Notes: generated from the letters alone by a model not told the origin. 39,001 nucleotides of DNA from a virus (IMGVR_UViG_3300022858_000548:1-39001); one strand, 5' to 3'. Shown: positions 22,878 through 36,779, numbered from the stretch's first letter. Numbers and translations are program-made.

Positions 22878-22982
22878 TCACTTTCCCCATGTGAGAATCC
22901 AATCAGTCAGGGCCAAAGTTGCCAGGGAAATAAGTATTCCCGATACGATACTTATCCAAACGAGAGTTCCCAGTCTACGCAT
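22878..22982 (-). CDS. Single-pass small membrane protein (34 aa)
   Basis: A 34-residue frame: MRRLGTLVWISIVSGILI, then a short continuation ending ALTDWILTWGK. Two arginines are followed by one hydrophobic segment of about 22 residues (about 6-28), consistent with an N-in single-pass membrane protein. The ATG overlaps the stop of the upstream gene by eight bases, and the stop lies seven bases before the glycosyltransferase-like gene, so it is well packed in the operon. Possible roles include a holin or antiholin, a spanin-like subunit, or a membrane partner of the next gene. Nothing decides between them. Confidence 0.55.
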   Translation of the reverse strand: MRRLGTLVWISIVSGILISLATLALTDWILTWGK

Positions 22983-23184
22983 CTTTTGCCATTTCCCCAT
23001 ATAGGATTATGTCGGCAACGATTTCCCGATCCGACATATTGTGATAAACCAGCGGCTCGAAGCCACATTCCAAATCATCCAGATACATCTGGCGGAGTTC
23101 AACTGAGACCTTAGTGGCTGAGTTGATCACAGCCACCACACGCCGGTATACTCTTTCGGTCCACGGCAACGTGCATCCTGCCAT
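22975..23184 (-). CDS. Small protein of unknown function, first gene of its operon
   Basis: A 69-residue protein with a strong AAAGGAG ribosome site eight bases before the ATG and a TATAAT promoter about 30 bases upstream. The 5' leader ATTCGAAAGGAGC also occurs before the gene at 23,657-23,875. The protein is mainly helical (WTERVYRRVVAVINSATKVSVELRQMYLDDL) with an acidic C-terminus. No family was recognised. Placement beside operator-like sites makes a regulatory or host-interaction role plausible. Confidence 0.65.
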   Translation of the reverse strand: MAGCTLPWTERVYRRVVAVINSATKVSVELRQMYLDDLECGFEPLVYHNMSDREIVADIILYGEMAKDA

Positions 23185-23242: not shown

Positions 23243-23277
23243 GGGAATTCTGAAAAGTTCTGAAGGTTTTTTTCGGC

Positions 23278-23368
23278 GCTATACTTCGCGTAGAGGCTCC
23301 GGCAGATCGGATGCGACCTATACCATGCAGGCAAAGGTTGCCGCGGCCAATGGCGCAGTATACATAGC
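23278..23368. repeat. Structured inverted-repeat element E1
   Basis: GCTAT at the left pairs with ATAGC at the right, followed by ACT/AGT and CGC/GCG with a small bulge, then a GC-rich middle stem. The apical part holds the 18-base core TGCATGGTATAGGTCGCA on the minus strand (23312-23329). It lies just upstream of promoter P1. Confidence 0.6.
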
Positions 23369-23372
23369 TAGA

Positions 23373-23396
23373 TTTTACCCTGCGGATAGGGTAAAA
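23373..23396. promoter_or_regulatory. Operator-like dyad O1
   Basis: TTTTACCCT, six bases, AGGGTAAAA is a perfect dyad. The T-runs and A-runs sit on the wrong sides for an intrinsic terminator on either strand, so a dimeric protein-binding site is the better reading. The same half-sites recur at 23,959 and 25,721. Confidence 0.6.
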
Positions 23397-23403
23397 AATA
23401 GCT

Positions 23404-23491
23404 CGCATAGATCGCGTTTAAGCTACGGCAAAGCGGTTGCGCATAGTAACCCACGCATGATTCCAAGCGCCGGCTCTACGCGATCTATGCG
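23404..23491. repeat. Structured inverted-repeat element E2
   Basis: CGCATAGATCGCG (23404-23416) and CGCGATCTATGCG (23479-23491) form a perfect 13-bp stem. The loop region holds the core variant CGCATAGTAACCCACGCA (23440-23457). Its outer stem sequence is shared with element E3. Confidence 0.65.
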
Positions 23492-23511
23492 CGCGTCATG
23501 GCGAAGGTCAC

Positions 23512-23655
23512 CTAGCTCCTCTTAGACCTCCGGGAGCTACGCAGCCGCAGTCGGCTGAATTCGATCAGCAACCGGTCTATGGCCCTTGCCTTCGCCGCCT
23601 CCAACTCTGCCATGCGTAGCAGCATTGAACGCATCCCTTCAGGGCTGGTTTTCAT
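23512..23655 (-). CDS. Small basic protein (47 aa)
   Basis: A 47-residue frame reading MKTSPEGMRSMLLRMAELEA and ending RLRLRSSRRSKRS. Its ATG lies one base after the stop of the upstream gene, and AAGGAAGG in the end of that gene is a suitable ribosome site. One long amphipathic helix is followed by an arginine-rich tail, suggesting nucleic-acid binding. No family was recognised. Codon pattern and coupling support it being real, but the length limits certainty. Confidence 0.55.
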   Translation of the reverse strand: MKTSPEGMRSMLLRMAELEAAKARAIDRLLIEFSRLRLRSSRRSKRS

Positions 23656-23656
23656 C

Positions 23657-23875
23657 TCAGCCTTCCTTGGCTGTGATCATGCATCCGATCATTTCAATCT
23701 CGCCCGCGGGGTCTGAAAGGCAATCGAACCGGAGGTGGCTGAATACCTCGTCCTCGAGTTCCAACCCGACCGCGTCGGTCTGAATTTCAAACTCAGCGTG
23801 CCTGGGCTGAGATGGTTCATCCGATCCCGGCCCACCCCAGAGGGTATAGTCGATTGCAACCTCGTAGGTTTTCAT
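23657..23875 (-). CDS. Small acidic protein of unknown function
   Basis: A 72-residue protein with AAAGGAG eight bases before its ATG and promoter P2 about 27 bases upstream. It is acidic and strand-rich (MKTYEVAIDYTLWGG; LEDEVFSHLRFDCL; GEIEMIGCMITAKEG). Small acidic early proteins of phages often bind host enzymes or mimic DNA, but nothing specific is seen here. It is co-transcribed with the basic 47-residue protein directly after it. Confidence 0.65.
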   Translation of the reverse strand: MKTYEVAIDYTLWGGPGSDEPSQPRHAEFEIQTDAVGLELEDEVFSHLRFDCLSDPAGEIEMIGCMITAKEG

Positions 23876-23901
23876 CGCCTGCTCCTTTCGAATCTACATT
23901 A

Positions 23902-23930
23902 ATTATACCCTCCACCCTGCGCCAAGGCAA
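23902..23930 (-). promoter_or_regulatory. Leftward sigma70-type promoter P2
   Basis: TTGCCT (23930-23925) and TATAAT (23907-23902) are 17 bases apart on the minus strand. An ATTATACCCT half-site overlaps the -10 box and the dyad O2 lies 29 bases upstream, so repression by the same factor is plausible. Confidence 0.8.
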
Positions 23931-23958
23931 GGGCGAATCTAAAAACTTCTGCAGGGTA

Positions 23959-23984
23959 TTTTCACCCTACGGGTAGGGTGAAAA
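23959..23984. promoter_or_regulatory. Operator-like dyad O2
   Basis: TTTTCACCCT, six bases, AGGGTGAAAA is a perfect dyad with the same half-site as O1 plus one base pair. It stands just upstream of promoter P2. Confidence 0.6.
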
Positions 23985-23992
23985 TTAGCTCT

Positions 23993-24077
23993 CATAGATC
24001 GCGTAGAGGGCGCGGTGGCAGATGCCTGCATGGTATTCGTCGCAGGGATTCTACCCGCGCCCTCTACGCGATCTATG
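23993..24077. repeat. Structured inverted-repeat element E3
   Basis: A perfect 23-bp inverted repeat: 23993-24015 (beginning CATAGATCGCGTAGAGGG) is complementary to 24055-24077. The 39-base loop contains CCTGC/GCAGG around the core TGCATGGTATTCGTCGCA (24027-24044). It lies between the terminator-like hairpin of the gene at 24,138 and promoter P2. Confidence 0.75.
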
Positions 24078-24099
24078 CGCGCGTCATTTCAAAGAGAGC

Positions 24100-24123
24100 G
24101 CCCAGGGGCTTTTGCCCCCGGGC
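24100..24123 (-). terminator. Terminator-like hairpin after the gene at 24,138-24,431
   Basis: GCCC-A-GGGGC and GCCCC-C-GGGC form a nine-base-pair stem with one mismatch and a TTTT loop, 14 bases beyond the stop. The following leftward sequence (GCTCTCTTTG) is only partly T-rich. Confidence 0.5.
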
Positions 24124-24137
24124 TTCGCTGATCCGAA

Positions 24138-24431
24138 TTAGGCCGCGACGCGGATGAATCCCTTAACCGTGGACTGAATCTGGCCCTCGGTGGCCTCGAC
24201 CGAAACATATCCGGCCTTCAGTAGCCGCTTCATCGCGCCGTAAACCAGCCGCGTCCGGGGCTGTATCGGAAGCAGGTTGAAACGGGCGAGCTTGGAATCA
24301 ATCCAGCTACGCATGGTGGCGATGGTGAAAACCGTGTTGGGGTAGTAGCGCAGGATACTTTTGACCGCGGCGAAAACTTCCGGGCGCGCGTTGCGGAGTT
24401 CGGCGTTGACCTTTTCGTTTGTACTCGACAT
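24138..24431 (-). CDS. Probable winged-helix DNA-binding protein
   Basis: A 97-residue protein. The ATG at 24431 is chosen because the promoter P3 -10 box (24484-24489) lies inside a longer in-frame version, and because GAAAGG precedes this ATG at eight bases. Residues about 15-75 look like a helix-turn-helix with recognition-type helices (VFTIATMRSWIDSKLARF; RTRLVYGAMKRLLKAGYV), and the last strands (VSVEATEG then TVKGFIRV) form the wing. It probably binds DNA as a regulator. The large number of operator-like repeats around it makes autoregulation likely but unproven. Confidence 0.65.
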   Translation of the reverse strand: MSSTNEKVNAELRNARPEVFAAVKSILRYYPNTVFTIATMRSWIDSKLARFNLLPIQPRTRLVYGAMKRLLKAGYVSVEATEGQIQSTVKGFIRVAA

Positions 24432-24483
24432 CGTATCGACCTTTCTTTTTGGAGAAGCCGTTTGCTCCTCCTTAACTATATGT

Positions 24484-24512
24484 ATTATACGATCCACCGA
24501 GGGCAAAGGCCA
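24484..24512 (-). promoter_or_regulatory. Leftward sigma70-type promoter P3
   Basis: TGGCCT (24512-24507) and TATAAT (24489-24484) are 17 bases apart on the minus strand. It sits immediately downstream of repeat array A in the direction of transcription and gives a leader of about 45 bases to the gene starting at 24431. Confidence 0.75.
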
Positions 24513-24555
24513 GCGCCAAATCCTTTTTCTTTTGGTCGGTGTTTGGTCCGGTACT

Positions 24556-24715
24556 CAGCCACAGGCGGCCGGTATCGAACTCAGACACTCGAGGCTGCGA
24601 TGGCAATTCAGACAGACAAGGCCGGTTGTAGTATCTCAGCCAGCGTTGGCCAGTCTCAACCAACCAGCCCTAGGGGTCTGAGTTAGAACAACTCAGCCCT
24701 GTCGGGATGAATCTC
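24556..24715. repeat. Degenerate 27-bp repeat array A (six units)
   Basis: Six units start with CAGCC or CAGAC, with their G at 24558, 24584, 24611, 24639, 24667 and 24696, a spacing of 26-29 bases. The best copies read CAGCC, six bases, GGCC, then GTAT or GTCT and often AACT. The array fills the gap between the gene at 24,776 and promoter P3 and matches array B in unit and period. Confidence 0.7.
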
Positions 24716-24727
24716 CAGGCACAAAAG

Positions 24728-24754
24728 AAACCCAACCCCGGAAGGGTTGGGTTT
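24728..24754 (-). terminator. Intrinsic terminator of the gene at 24,776-25,189
   Basis: AAACCCAACCC and GGGTTGGGTTT form an 11-bp stem with a five-base loop, 21 bases past the stop. The leftward RNA ends in TTTCTTTT. A classic rho-independent terminator. Confidence 0.85.
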
Positions 24755-24775
24755 CGATTGCTGACCTCGTTGGGT

Positions 24776-25189
24776 CTACTTCTCGTCCTTGATCTCGGCC
24801 TTCGCGAGCTGCTTGGCGGCGATGACTTTCAGCTGCATCGGGCCGGTTTCGTCGACCTGGTAGATGTAACCGACCCCGTCCGTATCGGAACGGCGAAGGT
24901 TGCCCTCGTTCAGCATCTTGTTGATGTGAGTTCGGACCGTTGCCGGGGCACATCCGGTCTCTTCGACCACCGCCTTGATGATGTGTTTCGGGGCGAATGG
25001 TTCCGAACGAACGAAGTCGAAGAGCGATTGGCGACACGTCTTGCCATCGGTCTTCTTCCGCTTGTCGACTTTCGGGAGCTCCTGCGGCTTGTCGGCACCT
25101 GCCGGCTTCGCATCGGACTCGACAGTCGGCTTCGCGGCAACCTGGCCCTTGTCGGCCGGCTTCGCGTCTTCCTTCTTCGCGCCTGCCAT
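24776..25189 (-). CDS. Winged-helix DNA-binding protein with Ala/Lys-rich N-terminus
   Basis: A 137-residue protein. ATG 25189 has GAAAGG at suitable distance; an in-frame GTG at 25255 lacks a ribosome site. Residues about 1-50 are disordered and rich in Lys, Ala, Asp and Pro, like histone-type tails. Residues about 52-110 (SLFDFVRSEPFAPKHIIKAV; VEETGCAPATVRTHINKML; RRSDTDGVGYIYQV) form a helix-turn-helix with wing. The tail suggests general or cooperative DNA binding. It has its own promoter (P4) and terminator, so it is a single-gene unit, and its codons are more GC-rich than those of the neighbours, suggesting high expression. It is a candidate binder of the nearby repeats. Confidence 0.7.
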   Translation of the reverse strand: MAGAKKEDAKPADKGQVAAKPTVESDAKPAGADKPQELPKVDKRKKTDGKTCRQSLFDFVRSEPFAPKHIIKAVVEETGCAPATVRTHINKMLNEGNLRRSDTDGVGYIYQVDETGPMQLKVIAAKQLAKAEIKDEK

Positions 25190-25289
25190 GGGTAAGCCTT
25201 TCTGGCCCTCGCGGGCCGAATAGAGTTGGCAAGTTTGAGTTGCGACCGTATTCACTTTTCAAAGTCGGTTCGTTCTTAACTCTGAATGT

Positions 25290-25318
25290 ATTATATCATA
25301 CACCTGCGAGCAAGGCCA
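25290..25318 (-). promoter_or_regulatory. Leftward sigma70-type promoter P4
   Basis: TGGCCT (25318-25313) and TATAAT (25295-25290) are 17 bases apart on the minus strand. A TATGATATAAT extended box is shared with P1. It drives the winged-helix gene starting at 25189 through a leader of about 95 bases. Confidence 0.75.
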
Positions 25319-25352
25319 GAACCAAATCAGAAAAACTTTCCGGTCACATCGA

Positions 25353-25446
25353 CTCGCATACTTCGCGTTTAAGCGCCGGGTCTCATGCCTGCATAGTATC
25401 CATCGCAGGCGATAGACTCCGCGCCTTGCTGCGCAGTATACGCGAG
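25353..25446. repeat. Structured inverted-repeat element E4
   Basis: CTCGC, ATACT and CGC on the left pair with GCG, AGTAT and GCGAG on the right; a second GC-rich stem and GCCTGC/GCAGGC enclose the core TGCATAGTATCCATCGCA (25390-25407). It lies between promoters P5 and P4. Confidence 0.65.
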
Positions 25447-25504
25447 GTTATTTCGATGTCAGAGAGCTCAGACTTGTTCAGCTTGCTTCTCTTCAACTGT
25501 ATAT

Positions 25505-25533
25505 ATTATACGACATCTCCAGGCGACAGGCAC
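25505..25533 (-). promoter_or_regulatory. Leftward promoter P5 with no gene of its own
   Basis: GTGCCT (25533-25528) and TATAAT (25510-25505) are 17 bases apart on the minus strand. No open frame of useful length follows before promoter P4, about 190 bases on; the transcript would instead contain element E4. Confidence 0.65.
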
Positions 25534-25614
25534 GGAAAAAATCAGAAATATTTTGTTCGTGTCTTGGTAGGTATAGGATCACCGGACCAGGACACGACCA
25601 AACGAGCGACTCAA

Positions 25615-25711
25615 CATAGCGCGCGTTTGAACGCGCATACACATGCGGCAACGGCGCATGCGATATATACCATGCAGCGCGCCTCGACAGGCGCTATACG
25701 GCGCGGTTATG
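25615..25711. repeat. Structured inverted-repeat element E5
   Basis: CATAGCGCGC near the left end is largely complementary to GCGCGGTTATG at the right, with further CGCG-type pairs inside. The apical part carries TGCATGGTATATATCGCA on the minus strand (25659-25676). The stem is less regular than in E2 or E3. Confidence 0.5.
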
Positions 25712-25720
25712 AGAGCTAGA

Positions 25721-25772
25721 TTTTACCCTGCGCAGGGTGTTATCACCCTCTCGCGCAGGGTGATTTCACCCT
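25721..25772. promoter_or_regulatory. Operator-like cluster O3
   Basis: Five half-sites in 52 bases: TTTTACCCT and AGGGTGTTA (dyad, four-base spacer), TATCACCCT and AGGGTGATT (dyad, seven-base spacer), and TTTCACCCT. They match the half-sites of O1 and O2 and lie between E5 and repeat array B. Confidence 0.6.
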
Positions 25773-25777
25773 CAACC

Positions 25778-26065
25778 CGGCCTCGCGTAGCCGGTATCTA
25801 ACGCAGCCCTGTGAGGCCGGTATAGCGAACTCAGCCACGCGTAGCCAGTATACAATCACAGCCTCGCTCGGCCAGTATCCAACTCAGCCAGCCGTGGACA
25901 GTTTACATTATCCCAGCCACGCAAGGCCTGTATACAAATACAAGCCGCGCGAGGCCAGTATAGGAATACCAGCCCTGCGCGGCCCTGATTGAACTCAGCC
26001 CTGTGCGGATGCGATCGCTACTCAGCCACCTCGGGCTGAGTTGAATCCAGCCCTCGCCAGCCCTG
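25778..26065. repeat. Degenerate 27-bp repeat array B (eleven units)
   Basis: Eleven units, with the G of GCC at 25780, 25806, 25834, 25861, 25887, 25916, 25944, 25972, 25998, 26025 and 26050, spacing 25-29 bases. Clear copies read CAGCCTCGCTCGGCCAGTAT or CAGCC, six bases, GGCC, then GTATA. GCC and GGC around six bases give each unit a small dyad. The last two units lie inside the 3' end of the MazG-like gene. It looks like an iteron-style protein-binding array. Confidence 0.75.
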
Positions 26066-30493: not shown

Positions 30494-31327
30494 CTAAAGG
30501 TTTTCTTCGGCCACAGGTACGTAGTTCAATGAAGCAGACAGGAGAGCAATGTTCTCACCAATGGCTTCTTCCATTTCGGAAGTGAGATCAGTCTCGGTCA
30601 GTGACATGAAACCATCCGGTCGAGGACCATCGGTCTCAATGATTGGAACCTCGGGGTCAAGAACCTTTAGGTCCATTCCCATTCGTACATGCTTCGAGGT
30701 ATCGACTCCCCGAACAATGTTTCGGACAGCAGGATCGATGTCCAATGGTTGAGTCATTCCCAGGAGATGAATCTCGACTCGGTGACCGAACTTCTCTGCC
30801 CGGGGAATGAGAACTTCGTTGTACAAACGAAGAGTCAATTCATCCCTCGAGATCCCTAGTGCCTCGGCTGCGATGAAAGGAACACCGACACAATTGAGTC
30901 CGGGAAGTGCAACCATCAACTCAGCACACTCTAGGTACTGAGTGATCTCGGAAGCATGGGGAACGCCCATGAACAATGAATAGGGCCAAAGCTCCCGTAG
31001 TTGATATGCGGCTTGAGTTGTTGCGTAAAGGGTTTCGACAGCTCGTCCAGGTACGTCGGGAAGAACGATCTCAGCCGGGAGAAGACCCAATGCATTGACT
31101 GCTTGAATGATTGAGTCAACGTCTGGGTTGTAAGGTTCCCCGTACGCATGGGCTTCGTAGGCACCATTGTCAAGTATGATGAAATGACTCTTCTCGGCCC
31201 TGGCACGATACGCTTCCCGGTACGTTGAATCATTCAAGACTCTGGGGACAAGAATAAGATGATACTTGTCTTCGTCCCCTTGAAGTCTATTGATCCATCC
31301 ACTGGGTACAATGGAAGCAAGTCTCAT
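30494..31327 (-). CDS. dpdA: DpdA-like DNA guanine transglycosylase
   Basis: A 277-residue TIM-barrel-type protein. FIILDNGAYE (residues 49-58, D53) corresponds to the DSGGFQ catalytic loop of tRNA-guanine transglycosylases. RGVDTSKHVRMGMD (206-219, D209) corresponds to the nucleophile region GVDMFDCV. LPDVPG (89-94) and IHLLGM (186-191) are further barrel motifs. No zinc-binding CxCxxC tail is present, as in short phage DpdA proteins. Such enzymes exchange guanine in DNA for a 7-deazaguanine base and protect phage DNA from restriction. It directly follows folE (ATGA overlap), with queE and queD upstream in the same operon, which strongly supports the role. Which 7-deazaguanine is inserted cannot be read from the sequence. 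Confidence 0.82.
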   Translation of the reverse strand: MRLASIVPSGWINRLQGDEDKYHLILVPRVLNDSTYREAYRARAEKSHFIILDNGAYEAHAYGEPYNPDVDSIIQAVNALGLLPAEIVLPDVPGRAVETLYATTQAAYQLRELWPYSLFMGVPHASEITQYLECAELMVALPGLNCVGVPFIAAEALGISRDELTLRLYNEVLIPRAEKFGHRVEIHLLGMTQPLDIDPAVRNIVRGVDTSKHVRMGMDLKVLDPEVPIIETDGPRPDGFMSLTETDLTSEMEEAIGENIALLSASLNYVPVAEENL

Positions 31328-31953
31328 GAATGAACTCCGTTCATCCGAACGAGATGAAGGAACTCGTCCTTGGATCCTTTCTCATTGGACAGGAAGCAAC
31401 CACGGACTGCGGATGTGATTGTCGTAGCCCCTGGCTGCTTGACTCCACGAATCGCCATGCACTCGTGTTCAGCTTCGACAACAATCATGACACCTTTGGG
31501 TTCGAGTACCTTTGACAAGGCCTCGACGATGTCCCGAGTGATGTCTTCTTGAATCGTTATCCTGTGAGCGAAGTACTCGACTGCCCTGGACAGTTTCGAA
31601 AGACCAACGATCTTTCCAGCCGAACCAGGAACGTATGCGACATGAGCCATCCCCCGAAAAGGAAGAAGGTGATGTGCGCACAAGGCCGTGAATCGAATGT
31701 TGGTAACTGCGACCATCTCTTCGAACCCAGATCGGAAAGAAGTCTTAACGATCTCCTCGAAGGGTCTTGGGTCCGGAAGAAACTCCATCAGGAACTTGGT
31801 GAAACGATCCGGAGTCCCTTGAAGATGTTGATCGTCGTTAATCTCTCCCGGAGTACACTTGTTCAACATTGCAAGCATCCAACGGACCTTGTCCGCTATC
31901 GCCTCCTGGCGTTGCCCCAAATCCATGTGTGCAGCCTCGTTGTTATGTTCCAT
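31324..31953 (-). CDS. folE: GTP cyclohydrolase I
   Basis: A 209-residue protein with LCAHHLLPFRG (C92, H94, H95) and AEHECMAIRGV (C165), which together supply the zinc-binding residues. GLSKLSRAVEYFAHRITIQE (split as GLSKLSR and the following residues) is the core of the family. The enzyme opens GTP to 7,8-dihydroneopterin triphosphate, the first step to folate and to 7-deazaguanines. Here the QueD and QueE genes upstream point to the latter. It overlaps queE by 58 bases. ATG 31953 has AAGGGG rather far upstream, and ATG 31926 has GAGG at eight bases, so the true start may be either. Coupled to dpdA by ATGA. Confidence 0.93.
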   Translation of the reverse strand: MEHNNEAAHMDLGQRQEAIADKVRWMLAMLNKCTPGEINDDQHLQGTPDRFTKFLMEFLPDPRPFEEIVKTSFRSGFEEMVAVTNIRFTALCAHHLLPFRGMAHVAYVPGSAGKIVGLSKLSRAVEYFAHRITIQEDITRDIVEALSKVLEPKGVMIVVEAEHECMAIRGVKQPGATTITSAVRGCFLSNEKGSKDEFLHLVRMNGVHS

Positions 31954-32582
31954 CCTCTTAGGATAACCCCTTCAACCAAGTCTTGAGTCCTGTCATGAAT
32001 GGTTGTACCATCAATGCCTTCGGGCATGATGTAGACATAGTTGTCCGGGATCCCTACTTCGTCTACGATCATTTGGACCTCGGCCAAGTCTTGTTTCGTT
32101 TGAACCACGAACTTGAATCGACTGTTGGCATTGAGGACGTAAGACTTGAGCACCTCGGGCTTGAATCGTTTGTCCAGATCCACTCCACTATTCTCTAGCT
32201 TCGGGGACACGATGTACCATTGGTTACTGTAGTTGCCTGGGAAGAGGGGAATGGTTCCATTGGTTTCGTATTCGAAATCCCATCCAGGCATCATGTCCCG
32301 AAGTTCATTCAACTCCGGAGCATGAATTAGAGGCTCTCCCCCTGTGCAGACGAGTAGCTTGGTACAGCCCATTGACATTGAACGAACTGTTTCAATCACA
32401 GCGCCAAGAGGCATGTGAGCTGGGTGTTCAGTTCCATTGTAGGTGTACTTCGAATCACACCAACTGCATCTGAGGTTGCAACCTTGAAGCCGAAGGAACA
32501 CAGCCGGACGACCTATCGATGGGCCTTCACCTTGAATCGTTGGACCGAAGATTTCGTTGACTGCAAGAGTCGCAGCAGGCAT
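31896..32582 (-). CDS. queE: 7-carboxy-7-deazaguanine synthase (radical SAM)
   Basis: A 228-residue radical SAM protein. The iron-sulfur motif is CNLRCSWC (C35, C39, C42), preceded by GPTIQGEGP, the family hallmark. TGGEPL and YETNGT bind S-adenosylmethionine, and SPKLENSG follows as usual. It converts 6-carboxytetrahydropterin to 7-carboxy-7-deazaguanine. GAGGAGA five bases upstream supports the ATG. It overlaps the small zinc-finger gene upstream by 56 bases and folE downstream, so the whole cluster is translationally linked. Its cluster partners suggest that the product feeds DNA modification. Confidence 0.93.
   Translation of the reverse strand: MPAATLAVNEIFGPTIQGEGPSIGRPAVFLRLQGCNLRCSWCDSKYTYNGTEHPAHMPLGAVIETVRSMSMGCTKLLVCTGGEPLIHAPELNELRDMMPGWDFEYETNGTIPLFPGNYSNQWYIVSPKLENSGVDLDKRFKPEVLKSYVLNANSRFKFVVQTKQDLAEVQMIVDEVGIPDNYVYIMPEGIDGTTIHDRTQDLVEGVILRGWNITTRLHTWIWGNARRR
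32338..32347 (+). repeat. CCCCCTGTGC motif copy (inside queE)
   Basis: One of five perfect plus-strand copies, here lying on the strand opposite to the coding strand of queE. Confidence 0.6.
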
Positions 32583-32721: not shown

Positions 32722-33162
32722 TCAGACAGGTTCCTCTTCGAGTTCCTTCTTGGTCAAGTAGGGGAACTCAACTCCAACCTGGTCACCGATCCAAATGGTG
32801 GCAGAGCCGGATGCTGTTTCCCAAAGACGGATCTTGTGAACCGGAAGATGAGACATCTGCTTCAACCGATTCAAGATCCAAAAGCACATGTTCTCGGCAG
32901 TCGATCGCACAGGGAGAACGTCGTTCAGGTGGGCGTGGTCCAGAACTGAATCGATCAGTTTAAACCAGACGTGTTTGATGTCACCGAAGTCGACAACCAT
33001 TCCTTCGGATGAACCCTCTTGAATCAGATTCCCTCGAAGGGTTAGTTCGACTATGTAACTATGCCCATGAACGCGAGCACACTTACCATTGTGTCCATAC
33101 AATTGGTGACTCGACTCGAATCGAAAGGTCTTGGTGACCTCAGCTATCGGAAGCTGCTGCAT
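32722..33162 (-). CDS. queD: 6-carboxy-tetrahydropterin synthase
   Basis: A 146-residue protein with the QueD/PTPS-type metal and catalytic residues: FESSHQLYGHNGKCARVHGHS gives H19, H32 and H34 (zinc) and C28 (catalytic). LDHAHLN and WETASGSA are the conserved histidine and glutamate regions. It converts dihydroneopterin triphosphate from FolE to 6-carboxytetrahydropterin. AGGAGGTGA is placed best for ATG 33162, not for the preceding TTG at 33165. Its start lies inside the end of the small gene upstream. It is followed directly by the zinc-finger gene and queE. Confidence 0.92.
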   Translation of the reverse strand: MQQLPIAEVTKTFRFESSHQLYGHNGKCARVHGHSYIVELTLRGNLIQEGSSEGMVVDFGDIKHVWFKLIDSVLDHAHLNDVLPVRSTAENMCFWILNRLKQMSHLPVHKIRLWETASGSATIWIGDQVGVEFPYLTKKELEEEPV

Positions 33163-33340
33163 CAATCACCTCCTGCGTGGGCTTGTATTCATCGTCCAGA
33201 AGACCTCGGGCCTGGAGATCCTTGAAGATGACCAGTCGGCAGTAAGCTGCCACAGGTCTCATCTCCAATGCCGCAGCCCTTTCGATCGCCGGGTACACTA
33301 GTGGATCAACGGGAACTGATACCAACTTGTGCTGAGCCAT
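33140..33340 (-). CDS. Small possible ribbon-helix-helix protein
   Basis: A 66-residue protein reading MAQHKLVSVPVDPLVYPAIE at the start. One N-terminal strand (HKLVSVPVD) is followed by two helices (YPAIERAAALEM; AAYCRLVIFKDLQARGLL), the arrangement of ribbon-helix-helix DNA-binding proteins. It is a weak match, and the function could be different. A GGGAG ribosome site lies before its ATG. Its end contains the queD ribosome site, giving a 23-base overlap with queD, and it follows the resolvase gene directly. Confidence 0.55.
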   Translation of the reverse strand: MAQHKLVSVPVDPLVYPAIERAAALEMRPVAAYCRLVIFKDLQARGLLDDEYKPTQEVIDAAASDS

Positions 33341-35645: not shown

Positions 35646-36779
35646 CTATTCGTTGGCCAGTTCGACGAGGCCGTCGACACTGGAGACGATTCCGGGCTTC
35701 AATGTCCGGACCTTTTTCAGCGTTGGAGGCTCGGTCTTGATCCAGAACCGAAGAAGCTCTTCTGCGTCTTTCAGTTCGGACTCGTCTCGGGCTCCGTTGA
35801 AAGCTTGACAAGCTTGACGAGTCTTCGTGTCACAGTCCCAACATCCTTCCCAACGTCTGTTGGGATAGATTGCGGGATCCGACTCGTCGATATAGGCCAT
35901 GTCTTTGAAGATGGCCGAAGTGTTTCGTTCCCAGGAACGAATCTCTCCCCAGTCGGCAGGGATCATGATACGTTTGAAGAACGGGTTCTCGGGACTCTTG
36001 TCTCGGCTGCGTAGTCTCTCGACGAAGTCAGCGTACTCGGGATCGTTTGGATCCATTCCAGCCTCAACCAGTCTCTTGATGTAGAGACCAGCCGTGGTCT
36101 TGATCCATCTCTTGGACATGGCTCCGTTCTTGAGCAGCTGGGGTTCGGTCGGTTCACCTTTGTAGATGCCGTCGTAGATACATCCACCCAAGACATCGTC
36201 TGGGAACAAACGAGCAAAGGCCCATTCATACCCGACGAATTGTTCGTTCAAGTTGACGATGAACTCTGGGTTTGGTGTCTGGGAAAACGTCTTGTGATCA
36301 ACCAACCAGTAGGCATTGGTTAACTTGTTTCGAATGAGCATGTCCCAGGTGCCCACATAGAACATGTCGTCGTAGGTTCCCGGCATTGGAATCTTGAACG
36401 GTTGTTCGACGACCAGGATCTCGAACTCATCCCCGAAGGGAGGAATTCCATAGTGATCCAGGTAGAGTTCAGTGTACAGTCGAGCCCTTGCAGCTGACTC
36501 TTCTACTCGGTCGTCTTCTTCCTGGCCCCAACTGGTTCCAATCTGCTTGGCATAAGTCTCAGCCATTGAAACCATTTCGGCATGGATCCATTTGTCCAAT
36601 GCCGGCTGCAACTCTTGGCCACTGGACACAATGGCAATGCCCTCATGGGCAACTGAACCCAACCAAAGGGCAGTTGCAGGAGCACCTGGTGTTCGAAGGG
36701 ATCGTCGACTGGGACTTGTTAGATCCCATTTGAATCGACAACGTTTGAACGCCTGCATGTCTGAATGACTGATGTCCAC
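35646..36779 (-). CDS. PD-(D/E)XK nuclease with Fe-S cluster (RecB/Cas4-like)
   Basis: A 377-residue protein. An early SHSDMQAFKRCRFKW supplies the first cysteine (C14). GSVAHE (41-46) gives the histidine, GTWDML the first aspartate (D146), and VDHKT (160-164) the D-x-K pair; QFVGYEW follows. C313, C316 and C324 in GCWDCDTKTRQAC complete a four-cysteine [4Fe-4S] pattern, as in Cas4 and AddB. It would act as an exonuclease in recombination or DNA-end processing. GTG 36779 has AAGGAG six bases upstream and promoter P7 upstream of that. It is the first gene of the recombination and modification operon. Confidence 0.82.
   Translation of the reverse strand: MDISHSDMQAFKRCRFKWDLTSPSRRSLRTPGAPATALWLGSVAHEGIAIVSSGQELQPALDKWIHAEMVSMAETYAKQIGTSWGQEEDDRVEESAARARLYTELYLDHYGIPPFGDEFEILVVEQPFKIPMPGTYDDMFYVGTWDMLIRNKLTNAYWLVDHKTFSQTPNPEFIVNLNEQFVGYEWAFARLFPDDVLGGCIYDGIYKGEPTEPQLLKNGAMSKRWIKTTAGLYIKRLVEAGMDPNDPEYADFVERLRSRDKSPENPFFKRIMIPADWGEIRSWERNTSAIFKDMAYIDESDPAIYPNRRWEGCWDCDTKTRQACQAFNGARDESELKDAEELLRFWIKTEPPTLKKVRTLKPGIVSSVDGLVELANE

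Follow-up and report, generated by a model that had tools for sequence, protein, structure and literature searches.

Five intergenic hairpin modules with a kept apical loop in an uncultured bacterial virus, and their possible role at transcription-unit boundaries

What would an uncultured bacterial virus do with five hairpin elements that are packed into a small part of its genome and are alike mainly at their tips? The question arises from the IMG/VR record IMGVR_UViG_3300022858_000548:1-39001, the whole of which (39,001 nucleotides) is called the window here. An earlier note on this DNA had described five long inverted repeats (E1 to E5) that share one loop on differing stems, and had proposed selection on a structure together with a recognised loop.

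Genomic setting and membership of the family

The plus strand of the window codes for the portal and for Mu F-like head and capsid proteins, and the minus strand for polymerase A, thymidylate synthase, a Sak4-like protein, an SNF2 helicase and preQ0-pathway genes. Two sister contigs overlap the window, and arithmetic on contig coordinates then implies that the map closes as a circle of about 52.4 kb. The record is incomplete: about 13.4 kb, terminase included, is absent from the window and was read from a second source (L148), which carries the large terminase, a RepB_primase/VapE-like protein and QueC. This primase protein (809 aa, L148:10309-12738) lies close to where the leftward gene block begins; its RepB_primase domain was matched at E 3.9e-6, above the Pfam cut-off, and its match to VapE-like ATPases was weak (E 6.9e-5). 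The E elements are located where the leftward block ends, and the largest noncoding gap in the window (25190-26017) is part of their region.

Homologues of FolE, QueE and QueD (31324-31953, 31896-32582 and 32722-33165) and of QueC (L148:13090-13908) belong to the preQ0 pathway and suggest 7-deazaguanine DNA modification. A gene for a NAD-dependent sugar epimerase (690-1586) stands immediately ahead of the portal gene, and glycosyltransferase-like genes lie upstream of it in L148.

The five elements are the following.

E1, 23276-23368, minus strand: exact core at 23312-23329(-); rightward-terminator polarity; 72.9 bits with the covariance model, E1 being in the training set
E2, 23400-23494, plus strand: core with three mismatches at 23440-23457(+); perfect 14-bp outer stem, 23404-23417/23478-23491
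E3, 23987-24083, plus strand: exact core at 24027-24044(+); perfect 23-bp outer stem, 23993-24015/24055-24077
E4, 25344-25461, plus strand: exact core at 25390-25407(+); without AT palindrome and adjacent U-tract
E5, 25615-25717, minus strand: exact core at 25659-25676(-); weak, branched fold

The core TGCATRGTATNNNTCGCA thus occurs in four exact copies and one copy with three mismatches, all inside 2.4 kb of a phage of about 52 kb. The earlier note had given both this count and the strands correctly, the cores of E1 and E5 being opposite to those of E2 to E4. Its perfect 23-bp outer stem in E3 was confirmed, and the stem of E2 is indeed perfect, at 14 bp and not 13. Shuffled windows held on average 1.04 core matches at up to three mismatches, and none of 100 reached six. 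The sole other such match in the window, at 36544, is unrelated, and the remainder of the genome yielded no additional copy. A model built from E2 to E4 only recovered E1 at 20.7 bits (E about 0.008) and E5 at just 14.8 bits (E about 0.2). E1 and E5, whose folds match those of shuffled sequence, belong to the family by alignment and above all by their exact core and the common flank. E1 to E5 form a genuine family of intergenic hairpin modules, specific to this phage.

The family was searched for well beyond this genome. A core scan of IMG/VR returned 93 stretches, which is about chance level (roughly estimated at 100), and among these matches the hairpin family was present only in near-identical contigs of the same phage. 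In GTDB contigs, CTGCATRGTATNNNTCGCAKG gave six single matches and no family at that tip pattern. Covariance model R1 had no match outside this phage in the portal relatives (42-56% identity), at 84 loci whose polymerases or thymidylate synthases are related, or in 50 whole virus records (49 plus a positive control); model R2 had none in 17 sources. The inverted repeats of three phages with related primases included no outlier like E3, in a scan that addresses inverted repeats and not loop families. Literature searches, which took in few subscription papers, turned up no account of comparable phage elements. The earlier note had proposed a covariance-model search and had held that a lack of covariation and of copies in relatives would speak against its reading. 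The second point applies in part, no copy having appeared outside near-identical contigs of this phage; the structural genes do have relatives, at 42-56% portal identity, but these did not show the early region, nor was any relative covering it found. The sister contig is identical across 22.0-26.5 kb, with no variation there.

As for known families, ARAGORN detected no tRNA in the window, Rfam gave only chance matches below the gathering threshold, and no copy has the GTTRRRY box of integron attC sites, a lone RYYYAAC at E5 aside. The exclusion of tRNA and attC in the earlier note is therefore supported.

Folding, the kept tip and the flanking module

Folded as RNA, E2, E3 and E4 were far more stable than shuffled sequence (z of -4.0, -10.9 and -5.6, respectively), and E1 and E5 folded no better than it (z of -0.1 and -0.4). 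The description as five long inverted repeats thus stands for three of the elements and fails for the other two. An inverted-repeat scan of the window placed E3 far above everything else and E4 within the background; E1, E2 and E5 did not rank among the top 25. The predicted folds are long rods with small internal loops; an alternative cloverleaf, in which every arm makes its own hairpin, fits E5 only. Folding energy does not tell which strand is used.

The shared loop had been given as 18 bases long. The kept tip is instead a 12-nt loop, ATRGTATNNNTC, closed by TGC/GCA, with a mean pairwise identity of 69% when its three free positions are counted in. Identity was 77% over the 18-nt core, fell to 68% in the outer helix and was lowest, at 41%, in the inner arms, which bears out the claim that stems differ while the loop is kept. 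The outer arms of E2 and E3 are nearly identical. Across the alignment 79.5% of cells are paired; shuffles gave 70.9%, with 0 of 500 as high, and slid controls were exceeded too. Ten of the 26 consensus pairs show two-sided changes, such as CATAGA/TCTATG against CATACT/AGTAT. These observations are suggestive of the selection on structure that had been proposed, and only suggestive, because the structure is derived from five paralogous copies and because palindromes can correct arm to arm, a process which can mimic covariation.

We also observed a flank that the earlier note had missed and that is new here. Four of the five copies sit in a larger module, made of the hairpin, then AGCTA-N(1-2)-TTTT, then an ACCCT..AGGGT palindrome. 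When the loop is read as GANNNATACYAT, E1(+), E2(-), E3(-) and E5(+) are each followed by these two parts. AGCTAN(1-2)TTTT has four occurrences in the window plus 15.5 kb of the remaining genome (L148), about 54 kb together, always at the end of an E element and in constant polarity to the loop, and ACCCT..AGGGT is found there only at three sites adjoining E elements.

Palindrome TTTTACCCTGCGGATAGGGTAAAAAA, 23373-23398: common to the convergent E1 and E2, with a T-run in each direction
Palindrome of TTTTCACCCTACGGGTAGGGTGAAAA type, 23960-23985: adjoins E3
Two tandem ACCCT..AGGGT palindromes, 25720-25767: adjoin E5

A T-run (T4-T6) follows the stem in one polarity at E1, E2, E3 and E5 and is absent at E4. 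At E2 it is a U6 run a few nucleotides past the stem, and the other three U-tracts have four U's only. In E4, the stem is lengthened by ACATCGA/TCGATGT in place of the flank seen at the other copies.

Transcription-unit boundaries and what the modules may do

The region holds five predicted sigma70-like promoters, recognised as consensus matches, which form one family (TTGCC..TATAAT) and all point leftward, as do the local genes.

P1, 23214-23242, minus strand: sigma70-like, TTGCCT-17-TATAAT with TG extension
P2, 23902-23930, minus strand: sigma70-like, TTGCCT-17-TATAAT
P3, 24484-24512, minus strand: P1-type family; no E element upstream, but repeats at 24547-24690
P4, 25290-25318, minus strand: P1-type family
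P5, 25505-25532, minus strand: P1-type family; E4 and then P4 next downstream
Gene 1, 22975-23184, minus strand: 69 aa, no assigned function
Gene 2b, 23512-23655, minus strand: 47 aa, arginine-rich C terminus, no Pfam match; ends 18 nt before E2
Gene 2, 23657-23875, minus strand: 72 aa, no assigned function
Gene 3, 24138-24431, minus strand: 97 aa, perhaps winged-helix, by eye only
Gene 4, 24776-25189, minus strand: 137 aa, perhaps winged-helix, by eye only

E1, E3, E4 and E5 each precede a leftward promoter and E2 stands behind E1, in agreement with the placement upstream of promoters reported before. The predicted units read P5-E4-P4-gene 4-terminator, P3-gene 3-hairpin-E3-palindrome-P2, P2-gene 2-gene 2b-E2-palindrome-E1-P1, and P1-gene 1; the terminator after gene 4 (24755-24727) is an ordinary intrinsic one, and E5 with its palindromes is upstream of P5. 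From this order of promoters, genes and elements, the modules are placed at boundaries between predicted transcription units.

Further repeats were noticed. About ten direct repeats of some 27 bp, CAGCC-N-GGC(C)..GTAT, lie at 24547-24690 and 25769-26060; each makes a short hairpin, and they may serve as iterons or operators. At L148:9309-9470, a further member of the P1 promoter family has upstream of it a 17-bp inverted repeat, GATGCTAGCATTTG, unrelated to E, and the pair CCCCCCCAGGAGAG/CTCTCCGGGGGGG is present at about L148:9875-9970.

We tentatively favour, at somewhat less than an even chance, reading the modules as hairpin-plus-U-tract terminators or insulators at these boundaries, with the loop as a recognition site. 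For a polymerase moving toward the T-tract, the hairpin and the U-run would stop or pause transcription and leave a stable 3' end, so that each small early gene would be insulated from the promoter that follows. The leftward-facing E2 and E3 would serve the ends of gene 2/2b and of gene 3, before P1 and P2; E1 and E5 face rightward and would act against antisense transcription, and E1 and E2, converging on one palindrome, would be a bidirectional pair. The kept loop (GANNNAUACYAU in RNA) may be bound by a putative factor, perhaps one that switches read-through. We infer termination from the polarity of hairpin and T-run, the site-specific flank and the boundary positions, and a binding factor from the kept loop. 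No phage RNA-binding partner for the loop was identified; the peptide of gene 2b, with its arginine-rich tail, is a possible candidate.

Several features weaken the terminator reading. Three U-tracts out of four are just four U's long, E1 and E5 fold like shuffles, and termination leaves the kept loop sequence unexplained. A loop read only in leftward RNA would not suffice, because the cores of E1 and E5 are inverted relative to the leftward genes; these two need rightward polarity or a role at the DNA level, and rightward terminators there would require an antisense or late transcript since all local genes are leftward. A terminator scan flagged none of the five elements, and it could not have done so, as it allows loops of 3-8 only. 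It is conceivable, if rather unlikely, that one factor, of the phage or of its host, reads the apical loop of five differently built hairpins and switches the early boundaries together, or that DNA hairpins seat the primase at a multi-hairpin origin; either would be a new loop-recognised class.

Replication is the strongest rival to the terminator reading, and in itself unlikely. The elements would be single-stranded DNA hairpins at which the phage primase-helicase starts synthesis on either strand, in an origin including the CAGCC..GGC arrays. The same replicon codes for the 809-aa protein with a RepB_primase domain, whose recognition of E is hypothetical; cores are on both strands, and direct-repeat arrays (25769-26060) occupy the largest noncoding gap. 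RepB' of RSF1010 recognises a hairpin start site, one per strand (PMC4434180), and the pRN1 primase-helicase replicon needs a stem-loop of about 100 nt whose structure is kept and whose sequence is not, similar stem-loops having been reported or proposed in phages (PMC4234260). However, RepB' contacts the 5' tail and the base of the stem, not the loop (PMC4434180), and the elements have no conserved GTG/CAC start motif, only scattered GTG/CAC and none in E1. The primase gene is many kilobases from the cluster, the U-tract flanking module would be unexplained, and the cluster is close to the GC-skew maximum, a position more typical of a terminus, although the skew is confounded by coding direction.

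Also improbable is an origin as dispersed palindromic repeats (REP/BIME-, ERIC- or MITE-like), copied within the phage without a dedicated function. Both orientations occur with common flanks, E1 and E2 stand head to head round one palindrome, and the near identity of the E2 and E3 outer arms, like the pairing signal, may reflect copying or arm-to-arm correction. Such copying would not be recent, given inner arms at 41% identity beside a core at 77%. Moreover, the five copies are confined to 2.4 kb of one phage, with none elsewhere in it or in the relatives scanned, GTDB contigs showed no family at the tip pattern used, and no transposase is among the ORFs scanned. Least probable, and quite unlikely, is RNA processing, in which host RNase III would cut stems in the early transcripts, or the stems would protect 3' ends, with promoters just downstream: long rods with small internal loops lie between same-strand genes, P5 runs straight into E4, and long stems are cut by RNase III in T7 early-region transcripts, but this enzyme needs no kept loop, E1 and E5 fold poorly, and core orientation varies relative to leftward transcription.

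Comparison with known systems

Like integron attC sites and the CALINs of phages (PMC9892861), the E elements are imperfect inverted repeats whose stems vary and which lie between small phage genes. The E elements differ from attC in having no GTTRRRY R-boxes, no integron integrase found, and a promoter of its own for each unit. REP/BIME and ERIC sequences are likewise intergenic, imperfect palindromes of about 100 nt or less in both orientations; E differs in that a single phage carries its five copies, and in its strongly diverged stems, its kept loop and a linked second palindrome.

T7 RNase III sites and lambda boxB are, like E, hairpins in early phage RNA, the former being cut and the latter bound through its loop. 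Unlike these, E contains no known site that was recognised, the Rfam scan being sub-threshold only. Should the loop be recognised, several early genes could be under the control of one factor via hairpins alike mainly in the tip, a regulatory design that would be compact and easy to test.

RSF1010 ssiA/ssiB and the pRN1 origin resemble E in that hairpin sites occur on both strands, that the replicon codes for an archaeo-eukaryotic-type primase, and that a variable stem goes with a kept structure. In contrast with these, the five copies of E are distant from the primase gene, GTG is not conserved, and the conserved part is the apical loop. As replication hairpins, the elements would extend the stem-loop origin idea of these replicons to a multi-hairpin phage origin.

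Intrinsic (Rho-independent) and bidirectional terminators have at unit ends a stable hairpin, as in E2 to E4, followed by a T-tract, as at every copy but E4, and the bidirectional ones, as in E1/E2, a convergent pair with a common A/T-flanked palindrome. Unlike intrinsic terminators, E has much longer stems, a conserved 12-nt loop and weak U-tracts in three copies, and its termination is predicted. If the elements are only terminators, the palindrome that serves two convergent hairpins would be a tidy, ordinary bidirectional terminator.
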